In this document: one piece after another, positions 15,889 to 24,781 of the stretch
Numbering within the stretch: position 1 is the stretch's first letter
Layout: every line of letters begins with the position of its first letter
Origin: Rhodospirillaceae bacterium
Lineage (GTDB): Bacteria; Pseudomonadota; Alphaproteobacteria; UBA6615
DNA length: 64,000 bases
Assembly (NCBI GenBank): GCA_002724635.1
Contig: PBPM01000109.1
Location: forward strand, 1-64,000
Direction: 5' to 3'
Notes under the pieces: model-generated
Databases searched by the model: none
What the model was told of the DNA's origin: nothing
The model's input: the letters and a program-made list of their open reading frames with translations, nothing else
Position numbers and translations under genes: made by a program

Positions 15889-17811
15889 TCAGGCATGGAT
15901 GCCGGTGGCTTCCGCCTCACGGCCGAGCGCACACAGGACCTTGGCGACGATGCTCGAAGCGGTCAGGCCTGCCTGTTCGTACTGGATCTCGGGCTTGTCG
16001 TGATTGATGAACACATCCGGCAGGGTCATGGGCCGGAACTTCAGGCCGCCGTCAAGCAGGCCCGCCTCGGCTAGGTCGGTCATCACTTGGGCAGCGAAGC
16101 CGCCGATCGCGCCCTCCTCCACCGTGACCAGCACCTTATGCTCGCGAGCCAGACGGTGCAGCAGCGCAGTGTCGAGCGGCTTGGCGAAGCGGGCGTCGGC
16201 CACGGTCGCGCTTAGCCCGAATGACGCCAAGTCTTCGGCGGCGCGCAGACATTCCTGCAGACGGCCGCCATAGGACAGCAGCGCCACGCTCGTTCCCTCG
16301 TGCAGTATGCGCCCAATGCCGATCTCCAGTGGCGTGCCGCGAGCGGGTACATTGACGCCAACACCCTCGCCGCGCGGATAGCGGAAGGCCGACGGCCGGT
16401 CATCGATCGCCGCGGCGGTGGCGACCATATTGACCAGTTCGGCCTCATCGGCCGCGGCCATCAGGACGAAGCCCGGCAGGCAACCGAGATAGGAAATGTC
16501 AAAGGAGCCGTGATGGGTCGCGCCGTCGGCGCCCACCAGCCCGGCCCGATCGATCGCGAAGCGCACCGGTAGTCCTTGGATGGCAACATCGTGCACCACC
16601 TGATCATAGCCGCGCTGCAGGAAGGTCGAGTAGATCGCAACGAAGGGCTTGAACCCTTCCGAGGCGAGGCCCGCAGCGAAGGTCACGCCATGCTGCTCGG
16701 CGATCGCGACGTCGAAACAGCGGTCCGGAAACGCCTTACCAAAAATGTCGAGGCCCGTGCCGGACGGCATCGCGGCGGTCACGGCGACGATTTTCTCGTC
16801 CGCCTCGGCCTCGCGCACCAGGCTGTCGGCAAAAACACGAGTGTAGCTGGGCGCGTTCGACTTCGCGTTTACCTGGGCGCCGGTCACCACGTCAAACTTC
16901 GAGACCGCGTGATACTTCTCGTCGCCACCCTTGTCGGATTCGAAGCCCTTGCCCTTCTGGGTCACCACATGGACCAATACAGGCGCGCCCTGCTTGCTGT
17001 CGCGAACATTCTTCAGGACCGGCAGCAGGTGGTCGATGTTGTGACCGTCGATCGGACCGATGTAGTAGAAGCCCATCTCCTCGAACAGAGTCCCGCCGGT
17101 AACAAAGCCGCGGGCATACTCCTCGGCCCGGCGTGCAGCCTCCTCGAAGCTCTTCGGGAACCGGTGCGCCATGTCTTTGGCGACACGGCGAAGCGATCGG
17201 TAGCTCTTCGACGAGATCAGGCGTGAGAGATAGGCGCTCATGGCGCCGACAGCTGGCGCGATCGACATGTCGTTGTCGTTCAGCACCACCAGCAGGCGTG
17301 AATCCATCGATCCGGCATTGTTCATTGCCTCGTAGGCCATGCCGGCACTGATCGAGCCGTCGCCAATCACGGCGACCACGTTATTATCGTTACCGGCTAG
17401 GTCCCGCGCTACCGCCATGCCAAGACCGGCGGAGATCGAGGTAGAACTATGCGCCGCGCCAAACGGGTCGTATTCGCTCTCGACCCGACGGGTGAACCCC
17501 GACAGGCCCCCGCCCTGGCGCAACGTCCTGATTCGGTCACGCCGGTCGGTCAGGATCTTGTGCGGATAGCATTGGTGGCTGACGTCCCAGATCAGCCGGT
17601 CGCGCGGCGCGTCGAATACGTGATGCAGCGCCACCGTCAGCTCGACCACGCCGAGCCCGGCGCCCAAATGGCCGCCGGTGATGGATACGGCATCGATCGT
17701 CTCTTGGCGCAAATCATCGGCCAGCTGCTTGAGCTGCTCGGGCGTGAAATCCGCCATATCCGCGGGAATCCGGACGGTATCGAGTATCGGGGTCTTGCTG
17801 TTATTGCTCAA
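15889..17811 (-). CDS. dxs: 1-deoxy-D-xylulose-5-phosphate synthase
   Basis: [82 protein letters not shown]. Confidence 0.97.
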
Positions 17812-17842
17812 TGGACGGGTCCAATCGCGGACTTAAATACAA

Positions 17843-18760
17843 TCATACGCGCCGGTCTATCAACCGCTCGGCAGCGGCCCGCAATAACTCTGCCTTTTGT
17901 CCAAAGAAATCAAGGTTTCCGACCGCCTTCTGCACATGCTGCGCGGCAATCTCGCGGGCCCCTTGGAGGCCGTGGCGCGATACGAAAGTCGCCTTGCCCC
18001 GCGCCTGGTCCTTGCCCACCGTCTTGCCGGCCTCCGCCACGTCACCAACCTCGTCGAGGATGTCGTCGGTGATCTGGAACGCGAGGCCGAAGTCCTCACC
18101 GAACGCACGCAAATGCGCCCGCGCGGTCTCATCGGCACCGGCCGAAACGGCACCGGCCTCACACGACCAGGCGAACAGGGCCCCGGTCTTCATCGATTCG
18201 AGTTGCATGATCTCCGCATCGCCGACGTCTGGCCGCCGCTCGGCCTCGAGATCGAGCATCTGGCCGCCAGCCATTCCGGCCGGGCCGCCCGCGCGGGCGA
18301 GGCCGAGCACCAGTTCTGCGCGGATGGCGCCATCTGGATGCGTCGTAGGATCTGCCAGCACCTCAAAGGCGAGGGTCAGCAGCGCGTCCCCGGCGAGGAT
18401 CGCCGACGCCTCATCGAATTTTCTGTGAAGAGAAGGCCGGCCGCGTCGCAGATCGTCATCATCCATTGCCGGCAGATCGTCATGCACCAGTGAATAAGTG
18501 TGCATCATCTCCACTGCCGCAGCAACTCGGAGTGCGGTGGCGCGGTCGCCCCCGCAGATCTTGGCCGCAGAGACGACCAGGAAGGGCCGCAAACGTTTGC
18601 CACCGGCCAGCACCGCATACCGCATCGCATCCCAGAGGTTCGTTACCTCGTCGGGCGATTGCGCAGCCGCGCTATGTGATCCTCTGTCCAAAAGCCGTGC
18701 GATCGTTGCGTCGACGTCTGTCGCGACGGCCGCCAGCGCATCGGCGTAGTGATCGGACAC
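17843..18760 (-). CDS. ispA: polyprenyl synthetase (farnesyl diphosphate synthase)
   Basis: LAGGKRLRPFLV, YSLVHDDLPAMDDDDLRRGRP, AFQITDDILDEVGD. Confidence 0.95.
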   Translation of the reverse strand: MSDHYADALAAVATDVDATIARLLDRGSHSAAAQSPDEVTNLWDAMRYAVLAGGKRLRPFLVVSAAKICGGDRATALRVAAAVEMMHTYSLVHDDLPAMDDDDLRRGRPSLHRKFDEASAILAGDALLTLAFEVLADPTTHPDGAIRAELVLGLARAGGPAGMAGGQMLDLEAERRPDVGDAEIMQLESMKTGALFAWSCEAGAVSAGADETARAHLRAFGEDFGLAFQITDDILDEVGDVAEAGKTVGKDQARGKATFVSRHGLQGAREIAAQHVQKAVGNLDFFGQKAELLRAAAERLIDRRV

Positions 18761-18763
18761 CGG

Positions 18764-19027
18764 TCAGTCCGAGGCAACAGGCTCGGCTTCCGGCGTGCCG
18801 TCGGCGCCGAGTGAAATCTTCTCGACACGGGCCTGCGCTTGCCGCAACTTAGATTCACAATGACGCTTCAAGGCGGCCCCGCGTTCATAGGCGGCAATCG
18901 CGTCGTCGAGCGCGCTATCACCTCCCTCGAGGTTCCGCACAATCTCCTCAAGCTGCACCAGTGCATCCTCGAAAGACATCTTCGCAATGTCGACCGGCTT
19001 CTCGGCCTTCGTGTCACTCTTAGCCAT
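18764..19027 (-). CDS. xseB: exodeoxyribonuclease VII small subunit
   Basis: MSFEDALVQLEEIVRNLEGGDSALDDAIAAYERGAALKRHCESKLRQAQARVEKI. Confidence 0.95.
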   Translation of the reverse strand: MAKSDTKAEKPVDIAKMSFEDALVQLEEIVRNLEGGDSALDDAIAAYERGAALKRHCESKLRQAQARVEKISLGADGTPEAEPVASD

Positions 19028-19069
19028 ACGCATTCCTCTACCGGCCAGCGCACTCGCCGTCAAATAGGT

Positions 19070-19996
19070 TCAGTCCATTAGGGCACGGACATGTGCCGCG
19101 GCCGAGTCGCCGAGCGCCGCCAGATCGTAACCGCCCTCGAGCGTCGAGACGAGGCGCCCGCCGCAGGCCTTGTCGGCCAGCTTGCGGAGCTCGTTCGTCA
19201 CCCAGGCGAAATCCTCGGTCTCGAGCGACAGCTGGGCCAGAGGATCGCGGCGATGGCCATCAAAACCAGCGGAGATCATAACTAGATCGGGCGCGAAATC
19301 CCACATCGCCGGCAGAACCACCTCGCGAATGGCAGTGCGGAAATCCGCCGAACCGGCTCCCACGGAAAGCGGCGCGTTGACGATATTACCATGTGCGCCA
19401 CGCTCGCTCCGGTCACCAGTGCCTGGATAGAGCGGCCATTGGTGGGTCGAGGCGTACAACAGATCGGGCTCGTCCCAGAACATAGCTTGGGTCCCGTTAC
19501 CGTGATGCACATCGAAATCCATCACGACCACCCGCTCCGCCCCATGGGCGCGGCGCGCATGCTCGGCGCCGATGGCGACACTGTTGAACAAGCAGAATCC
19601 CATGGCCTGTGTCGGCTCCGCATGGTGACCCGGCGGCCGCATGGCACAGAAGGCGTTGTCGGCGACGCCCGTCATCACCGCATCGACCGCCTCGATCAGT
19701 GCGCCCGCGGCGCGCAGCGCCGCCTCGCCGGACTTAGGCGACATGATCGTATCCGCATCGACCCGGGCATAGCCGTTGTCCGGCACCAGGCCGAAAACAC
19801 GATCCACGTGCTCCGCCGAGTGCATCAGCATCAACTGCTCGCGGGTGGCCTCCGACGGTTTATGGCGTTCGAGCGCATCGAATGCGCCGTCTGCAAGGAC
19901 ACCGGCGATGTTGAGCAGACGCGCGGGCGATTCTGGATGCCCCGAGGCGGGCTCGTGCTCAATGCACAACGGATGGAAGTAGAAACGGGTCGTCAT
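19070..19996 (-). CDS. histone deacetylase family protein (acetylpolyamine/acetoin-type)
   Basis: MTTRFYFHPLCIEHEPASGHPESPARL, RPPGHHAEPTQAMGFCLFNSVAIGAEHAR, DFDVHHGNGTQAMF, SAGFDGHRRDPL. Confidence 0.93.
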   Translation of the reverse strand: MTTRFYFHPLCIEHEPASGHPESPARLLNIAGVLADGAFDALERHKPSEATREQLMLMHSAEHVDRVFGLVPDNGYARVDADTIMSPKSGEAALRAAGALIEAVDAVMTGVADNAFCAMRPPGHHAEPTQAMGFCLFNSVAIGAEHARRAHGAERVVVMDFDVHHGNGTQAMFWDEPDLLYASTHQWPLYPGTGDRSERGAHGNIVNAPLSVGAGSADFRTAIREVVLPAMWDFAPDLVMISAGFDGHRRDPLAQLSLETEDFAWVTNELRKLADKACGGRLVSTLEGGYDLAALGDSAAAHVRALMD

Positions 19997-20216
19997 TTGC
20001 CAGCTCCAGCCTGACGCGAAGCCGTGCATTCTAGCGTCCTCGCCACCGTTGCGACAGGGACACGATCCGAAGCCTAGAATGGAACGTCGAAAATATGACG
20101 CCCCACATAGCAATATCGGTGTTATCCAATTGACATATATTCCCGTTTCGGCGTGTTCTCCCATCCGAAAATACAACCGGCAGAGGCCGAGTCGACGGTG
20201 ACCTCGGAGTGACTAC

Positions 20217-21602
20217 GTGATGTACGATCGAACTGTTCAGCGCGCCCGTCTGATCGGCCCGGGGGTGCTTGTCGCCGCCGTTTTTGCAGCCGGGACGGCA
20301 TTCGCGCAAACCCCGGAACTTTCGGGTCCCGCCAAGCCATTCGACACCAATGGCAACGGCGTGATCGAACGCAACGAGGCCCAAGGCCCGGCGGCGGTGA
20401 ATTTCGATACGATTGACCTGAACAATAGCGGTAGCCTCGACGGTGATGAGTTGCGGCATTTCTTCGCCGGTGGCCCGCGGCCTGCATCCGCGCCCGCTGC
20501 GAGCAACGCAGATATCAGGCTGCCGGACGGCAAAACAGCCAGCGGTCCACCCCGGGCGCGGGTCGAACTCGATGCCGTGATCGAGGAGCAAATCGGACAA
20601 ACGACGCCTGTCGTCGGGCGCATCGTCGCGCGACAGACCGGACCAGTGGCCGCACGCGTCAACGGCGCCGTCCTGAAGATGCAAGTTGATGTCGGCGACC
20701 GGGTCGACACCGGCGACGTACTGGTGATCATCGACCAAGAACGCATGCAGCTCGAACGCGACCGCTACGCGGCAATAGTCACCCAGCAGCGCGCAAACCT
20801 TGCAGCCGAGCGCGCAGGCCTAAAGCAGACTCAAAACGAGCTGAAGCGCCTAGAAGGCATCCGGAATTCCGTTGCCTTCTCCCAAGCCCGCTACGAAGAT
20901 GCGGTCCAAGCTGTCGCATCCCAGACGGGCAATGTGGCCCAGACCCGCGCCCAGCTCGCCCAGGCCCGAGCGCAGCTGAAGCGGGCTGACCGCGACCTAG
21001 CGGACACCAGCGTGGTAGCCCCCTATCCCGGTATCGTCAGCGAAACCCAAACCGAGATCGGCGCCTACCTGTCAGTCGGAAATCCGGTCGCCACTATCAT
21101 CAACGACAGGGACCTCGAGGTCGAAGCCGACGTACCCACATCGCGGATTGCCAGTCTCAACAACGGCGATGTCGTGAATATCCGCATCGCGGACGGTCAG
21201 GTTGTACCGGCGACGTTGCGCGCGGTGGTCCCGACCGAGAACCCGCGTACCCGCACCCGACCGGTGCGCTTCACTCCTGAATTCGACGGCATCGTGCTTC
21301 CGCTCGCTAACAATCAGAGCGTGACAGTGTTGCTGCCGGTCGGCGGCTCACGTAATGCGGTGACGGTCTCAAAGGACGCGATTACCCAAAGAAATGGCCA
21401 GAATATGGTCTTTGTCTCGAACAATGGTCGCGCCCAGCCCCGAGCGGTCACGACGGGTGAGGCGACCGGTAGCCGGCTCGTAGTTCTCTCGGGCCTAAGG
21501 GCCGGTGACCTCGTGGTGGTACGCGGCAACGAGCGACTGCGGCCCGGACAGCGGCTTGTCGACGTCGATGCCTCTCCGACGAACGACCGCGGCGGAGGTT
21601 AA
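20217..21602 (+). CDS. efflux RND transporter periplasmic adaptor subunit with N-terminal EF-hand pair
   Basis: Signal-like N-terminus; two EF loops DTNGNGVIERNE and DLNNSGSLDGDE; then lipoyl/barrel-sandwich (GPVAARVNGAVLKMQVDVGDRV), helical hairpin and beta-barrel of an MFP. Confidence 0.9.
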   Translation: MMYDRTVQRARLIGPGVLVAAVFAAGTAFAQTPELSGPAKPFDTNGNGVIERNEAQGPAAVNFDTIDLNNSGSLDGDELRHFFAGGPRPASAPAASNADIRLPDGKTASGPPRARVELDAVIEEQIGQTTPVVGRIVARQTGPVAARVNGAVLKMQVDVGDRVDTGDVLVIIDQERMQLERDRYAAIVTQQRANLAAERAGLKQTQNELKRLEGIRNSVAFSQARYEDAVQAVASQTGNVAQTRAQLAQARAQLKRADRDLADTSVVAPYPGIVSETQTEIGAYLSVGNPVATIINDRDLEVEADVPTSRIASLNNGDVVNIRIADGQVVPATLRAVVPTENPRTRTRPVRFTPEFDGIVLPLANNQSVTVLLPVGGSRNAVTVSKDAITQRNGQNMVFVSNNGRAQPRAVTTGEATGSRLVVLSGLRAGDLVVVRGNERLRPGQRLVDVDASPTNDRGGG

Positions 21603-21607
21603 ATCGC

Positions 21608-24600
21608 ATGAACCTGATCACGGCGTCGATTCACCGGCCGATCGCTGTCATCGCGGTCGTAATCATGGTGGTCATGTTTGGCTGGGTCGCGCTGCAACGC
21701 ATCCCGATCCAGCTGGCTCCCGATGTGCGTCAGCCCGTCATCATCGTGAATACTTTCTGGCCCGGCGCCTCGCCGCTCGAGGTCGAGCGCGAGATCGTAA
21801 ACCGCCAGGAAGAGGTCCTCAAGGGGACCGAGGGTGTTCGGAAGATTGAGTCGCGCGCGCGTACCGGACGCTCAGATATAACGCTCGAGTTTGAACCAAG
21901 TCAGAATATGAATCGGGCGCTGCTGCTAGTGGCCAATCGCCTCGACAGGGTGACCGGCTACCCCGAAGAGGCCGACGAGCCGACCCTGCGCACCTCAGGT
22001 ACCGATGACAACCCTATCGCCTGGTTCGTTCTGCGGCGCCAAGCAGGCAATAACCGCGACCTGCTGACCTATGGCGATTTCCTCGAGGATATCGTTCAGG
22101 AGCGCATCGAGCGCATTCCCGGGATCTCGGGCGTCAACATATTTGGCGAGACAGAGCGCGAGATGCGGATCATCATAGATCCCGAGCGACTGGCAAAGTT
22201 TCGCCTCACCGTGAGCGACATCGTCGAGCGTTTACGCGCCGAGAACGCCTCGATCTCAGGTGGCGTTGTGGAGGAAGGCAAGCGCGCCTACGTGGTGCGC
22301 ACCGAGGGCGACCTCACGACCCCGGATCAGGTCCTCGACGTGGTTTTGCGCTCGGATGCCGAGCGCGAAGATGGCCGCATCGGTCGAATCACGCTGCGTA
22401 ACATAGCGCAGGTCAAGCTGGGCTACAAAGAAGCACAGGCCCTGCCACACCGTTTCGACGAGCGCGCCATGGCGTTCAACATGACCCGCGAACAGGGCGC
22501 TAACGTGCTAACCGTCATGGACGAAGTGCATCGCGTGGTCAGCGGGCTGGCAGACGGCCCGCTCAACCGGGTCGGCCTCATCGTCGAGAACGTGTTTGAC
22601 GAAACACTGTACGTGAACTCGGCGATCTCCCTCGTTCAGCAAAACATCTTAGTCGGCGGCATCCTGGCTGCGCTTATCCTAATGCTGTTCCTGCGCTCCT
22701 GGCGCCCGACCCTAGTGGTGACACTTGCCATTCCGGTCTCGGTGATCGGCTCGTTTGTCGCGATGGCGGCGCTCGGCCGTTCCCTGAATGTTATCAGCCT
22801 CGCTGGGATCGCCTTCGCAGTCGGCATGGTCGTCGATGCGGCGATCGTCGTGCTAGAGAACATCTTCAGGCTGCGACAAGAAGGGCATTCGCGCGCAGAG
22901 GCGGCGCGCCTCGGCACCTCCCAAGTTTGGCCTGCCGTGCTGGTCTCCTCGCTGACCACCGTGATGGTGTTCATCCCGATACTAGTGATGGAACTAGAGG
23001 CGGGACAGCTGTTCCGAGATATTGCCGTTGCCATTTCCGTCGCCGTGATGCTGTCGCTGCTGGTCTCGGTGACGGTGATCCCCGCGCTTGCAAACCGGCT
23101 GCTCGTCACCAGCCAAGCCGAGGGCGCAACCCGGGTGCGCATTCCGGTGGTCGATGACTTTGCACAGCACTTCGTGAGCTTCTGGCAGAATTTCGCCCGC
23201 ATGGTGGTCAGCTCCAAGCTGCGCGCAATCATTGTAGTTGGTGCGATTACGCTCGCCTCGGGTGTTTTCACTATGGCCTTCGCGCCGAAGCTCGACTACC
23301 TGCCCACCGGCAACCGCAATTTTGTGTTCGGCTTCGTGAATGTGCCGCCGGGATACAATCTCGACACGGTTAACGAGATCACCGAGAAGATTGCAAACCG
23401 TACCCGCAGCCTCTGGGCATCAGAAACCGGCCCGGAATCCGAACCAGGAGAACCGCCCAAGTTCCAACGCTTCATCCGGGTCCCCTTTGCCGGCAGCGCG
23501 TTCATCGGCGGTACGTCGGTCGACCCGAGCCGCGCCGCAGAGCTGATTCCCGTACTGCAGAATGCGGGCGGGCAGGACCCGGGGGTCCTGACATTTCCGA
23601 GTCAGCCCTCGTTGTTCGGCCGTTCTCTGGGCAGTGGGCGCAACATCGACGTCGATATCCGCGGCACGGAACTTGACCAGATTTATCAGGTCGCGTTCGA
23701 TGTTTTCATCAGACTCGCACACCTCTTCCCGCGCAGCGCGGGAAATCAGGTTCGGCCCATTCCAAGCTTGACCCTGTCGGCCCCTGAAGTCCGGGTCGAG
23801 CCCAATCGCCTTGCGCTCGCTGACAACGGCTTGTCCGCCCATGCGCTCGGTCAGGCTGTCGACGCGTTTAACGACGGGCTGAGGGTCGACGAGGTCACCG
23901 TCGACGGTAAACGAATCGACCTGACCCTGACCGGGCCGCGCAACGTGATCGACCAGACGCAGGGCATTGGTTCACTGCCGGTCGTGACCCGGGATGGGCG
24001 GATCGTTCCGGTCGAGGGGCTTGCTAAAGTGACAATTACGTCCGGGCCAACCGAGGTGCGCCGCGCTGACCGGACCCGCACGGTTCGGCTTCAGGTGCGC
24101 CCGAACGTGGAAATGCCCCTGCAGGAAGCCTTCGAACGGATCCAAGAAGAGGTGGTCCAGCCTATGGAAGCGGTGGGCCTACCCAATGGTGTTAGTATCC
24201 GCCTGACCGGTACCGCGGACAAGCTAATAAAGACTTGGAACGAGCTGGTGATCGACCTGCTTCTCGCGATAGTAATCGTCTACCTTGTGATGGTGGTTCT
24301 GTTCGAGAGCTTCGTTTATCCGATGATCATTATGCTGACCGTCCCTGTGGCGGCCGCGGGCGGTATTGCGGGACTTGCGATCCTTAATATCGGGGTGCAG
24401 CAGCCCCTCGACATGCTGACGATGCTCGGCTTCGTGATCCTTACCGGAATCGTGGTGAACAATGCGATCCTGCTTGTCCACCAGACGCTCTATCACATCC
24501 GCGAAGATGAGATGAGCGCCGACGACGCGATCATGCGAGCGACCGAGAACCGAATCCGACCCATCTTCATGTCGACCCTCACGTCAGTCTTCGGGATGCT

Positions 24601-24781
24601 ACCTCTGGTGGTTTTCCCAGGGGCCGGCTCGGAGCTCTATCGCGGGCTGGGGTCCGTGGTCCTAGGAGGCCTGTCTCTCTCGGCCGTGCTGACCCTCGCC
24701 ATCGTCCCGCCGATGATGTCAATCACCGTCGGCTGGCGCGAGCGAGCAAGCGCAGAGTCACCAGCTTCCCTCAGTGGCTGA
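21608..24781 (+). CDS. efflux RND transporter permease subunit
   Basis: 1057 aa; MNLITASIHRPIAVIAVVIMVVMFGWVAL, FPGAGSELYRGLGSVVLGG, GIAFAVGMVVDAAIVVLENIFRLRQEG. Confidence 0.95.
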   Translation: MNLITASIHRPIAVIAVVIMVVMFGWVALQRIPIQLAPDVRQPVIIVNTFWPGASPLEVEREIVNRQEEVLKGTEGVRKIESRARTGRSDITLEFEPSQNMNRALLLVANRLDRVTGYPEEADEPTLRTSGTDDNPIAWFVLRRQAGNNRDLLTYGDFLEDIVQERIERIPGISGVNIFGETEREMRIIIDPERLAKFRLTVSDIVERLRAENASISGGVVEEGKRAYVVRTEGDLTTPDQVLDVVLRSDAEREDGRIGRITLRNIAQVKLGYKEAQALPHRFDERAMAFNMTREQGANVLTVMDEVHRVVSGLADGPLNRVGLIVENVFDETLYVNSAISLVQQNILVGGILAALILMLFLRSWRPTLVVTLAIPVSVIGSFVAMAALGRSLNVISLAGIAFAVGMVVDAAIVVLENIFRLRQEGHSRAEAARLGTSQVWPAVLVSSLTTVMVFIPILVMELEAGQLFRDIAVAISVAVMLSLLVSVTVIPALANRLLVTSQAEGATRVRIPVVDDFAQHFVSFWQNFARMVVSSKLRAIIVVGAITLASGVFTMAFAPKLDYLPTGNRNFVFGFVNVPPGYNLDTVNEITEKIANRTRSLWASETGPESEPGEPPKFQRFIRVPFAGSAFIGGTSVDPSRAAELIPVLQNAGGQDPGVLTFPSQPSLFGRSLGSGRNIDVDIRGTELDQIYQVAFDVFIRLAHLFPRSAGNQVRPIPSLTLSAPEVRVEPNRLALADNGLSAHALGQAVDAFNDGLRVDEVTVDGKRIDLTLTGPRNVIDQTQGIGSLPVVTRDGRIVPVEGLAKVTITSGPTEVRRADRTRTVRLQVRPNVEMPLQEAFERIQEEVVQPMEAVGLPNGVSIRLTGTADKLIKTWNELVIDLLLAIVIVYLVMVVLFESFVYPMIIMLTVPVAAAGGIAGLAILNIGVQQPLDMLTMLGFVILTGIVVNNAILLVHQTLYHIREDEMSADDAIMRATENRIRPIFMSTLTSVFGMLPLVVFPGAGSELYRGLGSVVLGGLSLSAVLTLAIVPPMMSITVGWRERASAESPASLSG

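Follow-up and report, generated by a model that had tools for sequence, protein, structure and literature searches.

An EF-hand pair predicted at the mature N-terminus of an RND efflux adaptor from a Rhodospirillaceae bacterium

Closest described systems

Known extra metal-binding domains on RND periplasmic adaptors occur with heavy-metal pumps. The N-terminal metal-binding domain of CusB activates the pump CusA, and in adaptors the N-terminus and first strand are oriented toward the inner membrane (PMC4446572). In SilB, the extra domain is C-terminal and CusF-like. Among EF-hand proteins, one hallmark of lanmodulin is a separation of 12-13 residues between adjacent loops (PMC10232371). The Caulobacter CaBP and EfhP groups are stand-alone EF proteins of Pseudomonadota that carry a signal peptide or membrane anchor, and many have a 24-residue loop period.

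The present study examined a stretch of 64,000 nucleotides (the window; contig PBPM01000109.1, positions 1 to 64,000) from a Rhodospirillaceae bacterium, which carries an adaptor gene with two EF loops. The encoded protein resembles RND periplasmic adaptors (TIGR01730; AcrA, MexA, TriA/B, and MexJ) in its core sequence, fold, and adaptor-pump operon. However, it differs from them in that an EF lobe forms the mature N-terminus, the signal peptide is cleaved, and there is no lipid anchor. CusB and SilB are the nearest precedents because they also bear an extra metal-binding domain, which in CusB is N-terminal and acts on the pump; the N-terminal domain of CusB is the nearest functional precedent. 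In contrast, the domains of CusB and SilB have an unrelated fold and Met-rich Cu/Ag sites, and their pumps export heavy metals. The CaBP and EfhP groups share the features listed above with the adaptor, but are not fused to a transporter component.

An earlier note on this DNA regarded EF-hands as foreign to standard RND adaptors, and this was borne out: AcrA, MexA, TriA/B, and MexJ have none. The note also allowed that the architecture might already be well described. We found no description of an EF-hand RND adaptor in the open literature, of which coverage was incomplete, and the accessible parts of adaptor and efflux reviews do not mention EF-hands. The new element is a compact pair with a 12-residue linker, present in one or two copies in one order-level clade and one further family among the genomes sampled.

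The adaptor gene and its N-terminal lobe

The features of the locus are listed below.

20206..20209, + strand: Shine-Dalgarno-like GGAG, 10 bases 5' of the ATG at 20220 (direct sequence reading)
20220..21602, + strand: EF-hand/RND periplasmic adaptor gene, 460 aa (ORF, Pfam/NCBIfam matches, orthologs)
20220..20306, + strand: Sec signal peptide, aa 1-29, cleavage between AFA and Q, without a lipobox cysteine (judged by eye)
20316..20477, + strand: EF-hand module (compact pair), aa 33-86 (alignment, HMM match 5.2e-29, AlphaFold2 pLDDT ~90)
20343..20378, + strand: EF loop 1, DTNGNGVIERNE, aa 42-53 (sequence; invariant ligands)
20379..20414, + strand: inter-loop linker, AQGPAAVNFDTI, 12 residues, with a conserved GP kink and an invariant NF..I (alignment)
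20415..20450, + strand: EF loop 2, DLNNSGSLDGDE, aa 66-77 (Pfam EF-hand_6 above cut-off; invariant D1, G10, and E12)
20478..20555, + strand: disordered, weakly conserved tether, aa 87-112 (pLDDT <50 at aa 91-105; length varies among orthologs)
20556..21575, + strand: RND adaptor core, aa 113-452, with barrel, lipoyl, alpha-hairpin, and membrane-proximal domains (TIGR01730, Foldseek)
21608..24781, + strand: RND pump gene, 1057 aa, in the operon of the adaptor (ACR_tran 657 bits; PDB relatives of the HAE1 type)

The ORF, Pfam, and NCBIfam confirmed the claim of two canonical 12-residue EF loops ahead of a normal RND adaptor core. Both loops lie in the frame of the ORF at 20220-21602 and begin 12 residues into the mature protein; AxA followed by Q is found at the same point of many orthologs. 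Each loop shows the EF-hand pattern of 12 residues with ligands at positions 1, 3, 5, 9, and 12, a glycine at position 6, and a hydrophobic residue at position 8. The Pfam model EF-hand_6 matched loop 2 at 26.9 bits (cut-off 25, E 2.9e-6), and also matched 21 of 21 aligned EF-bearing adaptors. The NCBIfam model TIGR01730 (RND_mfp) matched at 184.2 bits (cut-off 94.9), which assigns the protein to the RND periplasmic adaptors. Together with matches to HlyD_3 and HlyD_D23, the domain scan proposed in the earlier note therefore placed EF-hand and adaptor signatures in a single protein.

A wrong start codon or the fusion of two genes by assembly was also considered. Nothing was found in favor of either artefact, and their probability is practically negligible. 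With a later translation start, the signal peptide would be lost together with the conserved module, and the ATG at 20220 is preceded by the Shine-Dalgarno-like site. A chimeric assembly was excluded because the identical architecture, with signal peptide, module, and core in one open frame, recurs in at least 20 other genomes, a figure that also supplies the homolog count suggested earlier.

AlphaFold2 modeled the EF pair confidently as a compact lobe (pLDDT ~90) on a floppy tether (<50), followed by the core (>90). In this predicted model, helices flank both loops in a paired helix-loop-helix arrangement, a short, kinked helix forms the linker, and two-residue strands in both loops are consistent with pairing within the module. 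A Foldseek search with the core matched AcrA, MexA, and MacA, with E-values down to 1e-27, in keeping with the barrel, lipoyl, alpha-hairpin, and membrane-proximal fold. The tandem (four-loop) region of a relative gave a lower-confidence model (70), the nearest structures to which were calmodulin-type EF lobes; lanmodulin ranked 25th, with a poor TM-score. We also considered lanmodulin-style pairing between modules of different protomers, on the premise that a 12-residue linker forbids pairing within a module. The idea was abandoned as the leading interpretation because the model of a single module has strands in both loops and the tandem region is more calmodulin-like.

Conservation, distribution, and history of the module

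In related genomes, 28 modules were compared; D1, N3, N5, and E12 of loop 1 and D1, G10, and E12 of loop 2 were invariant in all. The non-ligand residues L34, A38, G56, P57, N61, F62, I65, F81, F82, G84, and G85 were also invariant, and this pattern implies a conserved core or surface of the lobe. Pairwise dN/dS ratios for the module were about 0.1 (range about 0.06 to 0.2) where computable, close to the value for the adaptor core; they are approximate because synonymous sites are near saturation. Purifying selection on the module equals that on the adaptor core. Since the ligands are invariant in 28 modules and the dN/dS of the module is low, we rejected a chance origin of the loops. Judging from these sequences, the fused module is a true EF-hand pair and almost certainly binds metal.

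The order of the window was sampled with 24 genomes, including that of the window, all from a single family in the collection; many of the sampled genomes are drafts. An intact adaptor of the same type was present in 20 of the 24, and 18 of these 20 carried the EF module, which was absent in G008 and G010. Eleven of the 18 EF-bearing adaptors had two modules (four loops), and the remaining 7, including that of the window, had one. A broken copy was found in one more genome (G021, L100), with frame changes in the second EF module and later that reflect either mutation or assembly error. One genome, G000, has an estimated contamination of 6 percent; nevertheless, the EF adaptor found there has the form typical for the genus. 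Across the class (385 genomes), EF-bearing adaptors occurred in 8 genomes from two families only, namely, that of the window and a second family, f30 (G052, G182, and G279).

In the adaptor-core tree, the EF-bearing rows require one state change, on a weak branch (79/36), and the clade comprising all EF-bearing adaptors and two lobe-free family members was supported at 98/95. The distribution fits a single gain followed by module duplication and copy loss. The module of the window is identical to module 1 of G005 at 42 of 54 positions and to module 2 at 37. The module of the sister genome G004 is identical to module 2 of G005 at 45 of 54 positions and to module 1 at 31. Neighboring lineages have lost different copies and kept one each. 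The retention of one, yet different, module in sister lineages suggests a need for at least one copy. However, two members of the clade have the adaptor but lack the lobe, which is therefore not essential to this pump type.

Spread by plasmids or viruses was considered and rejected: tblastn against plasmids gave no match, and no relative was found on viral contigs. The module profile found matches at E-values up to 1e-5 in 48 of 399 genomes from across the phylum. The 12-residue spacing is common among stand-alone periplasmic EF proteins and can also be seen within proteins of other kinds. In G013, this compact EF pair (DANENGTVELDE ... DANRDGSLSGFE) is inserted within a secreted metallo-beta-lactamase-fold protein (L113, 1081-2124); the module therefore moves between periplasmic proteins. 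Other phylum matches, including L155 and L157, are unrelated proteins that share the common linker pattern E-x-x-G-P-L-x-x-x-F. This pattern suggests a common family of periplasmic EF pairs for which Pfam has no specific model. Profile searches found no other EF-hand match in the genome of the window; thus, the module is not a multicopy element there.

Candidate ligand and possible role at the pump

The pump gene begins 5 bases 3' of the adaptor gene, the arrangement of a paired RND adaptor and pump. By sequence, the pump is placed with the drug-type HAE pumps, reaching 324 bits with the CusA/CzcA model TIGR00914 (cut-off 701), below its scores with general RND permease models. No outer-membrane channel gene lies in the operon, and OEP-family proteins are encoded elsewhere in the genome. 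The upstream neighbor is a histone-deacetylase-like gene encoded on the opposite strand, and an aldolase-like gene lies downstream.

Heavy-metal adaptors with extra metal-binding domains (PMC4446572) offer a precedent for metal capture, in which the lobe would take a periplasmic divalent ion and deliver it to the exporting pump, in the manner of the CusB N-terminus and the SilB C-terminus with Cu/Ag. However, the pump score falls short of the heavy-metal cut-off, and the adaptor reached only 107.7 bits with the CzcB/NccB model TIGR00999 (cut-off 319.3) and is not a heavy-metal adaptor by this measure. We consider metal capture improbable.

The sequence comparison with lanmodulin raises a different ligand. 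Compact EF pairs that bind rare earths would make the adaptor lanmodulin-like and tie the pump to rare-earth metabolism. The adaptor loops are 12 residues apart, within the lanmodulin spacing; position 9 is acidic; relatives carry four loops; and lanmodulin, likewise a periplasmic protein with compact pairs, is the best sequence match among solved structures (E about 5e-5). However, none of the 28 modules has proline at loop position 2, positions 3 and 5 of loop 1 are N, and the predicted packing differs, being nearer to calmodulin-type lobes. The adaptor fusion also sets the protein apart from lanmodulin, which has four EF hands in <200 residues, whereas the adaptor has two loops in 460 aa (four in some relatives). 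Searches of the genome found no methanol/ethanol-type PQQ alcohol dehydrogenase (TIGR03075) above cut-off and, with profiles, no lanmodulin-type protein or further EF module. Moreover, since ordinary stand-alone periplasmic EF proteins often have compact pairs with this spacing, it is not diagnostic of lanthanides. A lanthanide role was therefore rejected as a likely reading, and its probability is very small. Calcium is the likely ligand, as judged from the loops, because they lack the proline, neither a lanmodulin-type protein nor a PQQ dehydrogenase above cut-off was found in the genome, and the spacing is common in ordinary EF proteins.

If calcium is the ligand, the N-terminal lobe would bind two Ca2+ ions in the periplasm. 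In the predicted model, the folded structure of the mature protein starts with this lobe, and a flexible tether of ~25 residues separates it from the membrane-proximal domain; in the adaptor ring, the lobe would sit beside the inner membrane and the porter domain of the pump. In the most probable mechanism, the lobe, which is strongly acidic, would fold on Ca2+ binding, and its conserved face (with L, F, I, FF, and GG invariant) would be exposed or neutralized. The loaded lobe may then dock on the pump, a neighboring adaptor, or the membrane surface, and docking would strengthen or tune adaptor-pump engagement with external Ca2+. The earlier note proposed calcium sensing or calcium-dependent assembly, which are plausible readings, and, as a further option, calcium-dependent contact of the pump with the outer membrane or peptidoglycan. 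This last proposal is weakened because adaptor N-termini face the inner membrane (PMC4446572), and the module makes up the N-terminus of the mature adaptor, with a tether of ~25 residues; for the same reasons, calcium more probably acts at the pump, through contact of the lobe with the pump, a neighboring adaptor, or the membrane. We prefer Ca2+-dependent docking that tunes engagement, and put its chances at about even.

The main rival is constitutive structural calcium, in which tightly and permanently bound Ca2+ would stabilize or space the adaptor N-terminus without sensing or regulation. The number of module copies drifts between one and two without obvious constraint, in line with this reading. 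Periplasmic Ca2+ tracks the outside medium, a further point in its favor, and may always saturate the sites, leaving no switch. However, a plain spacer would not preserve invariant non-ligand residues across the whole lobe, and a long disordered tether would brace the core poorly. We regard structural calcium as a plausible but doubtful explanation.

A selectively conserved lobe near the inner membrane suggests that calcium may steady or tune the pump. Under Ca2+-dependent docking, if functional, an EF lobe on a drug-type pump would link divalent-ion levels to efflux directly and post-translationally. The broader proposal of an ion-sensing tripartite pump, in which an order-level lineage has a drug-type pump whose assembly or activity is gated directly by extracellular Ca2+ through the EF lobe, is rather unlikely. 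The small size of the lobe and the naturally lobe-free orthologs make the question accessible to ordinary biochemistry.

Two other features of the locus were noted. In the segment at 15889-21602, dxs, an ispA-like prenyl synthase gene, and the histone-deacetylase-like gene adjoin the adaptor-pump pair, and these neighbors recur wholly or partly in several family members (L089, L091, and L092). In the pump, residues 405-418 (GMVVDAAIVVLEN) correspond to the region of AcrB D407 and D408, with Ala in place of the second Asp, and residues 947-956 (GIVVNNAILL) correspond to that of AcrB K940, where Lys appears to be Asn. These altered residues may indicate different proton coupling. Since VDAA is also present in an EF-free relative (L034), it marks the pump subfamily.
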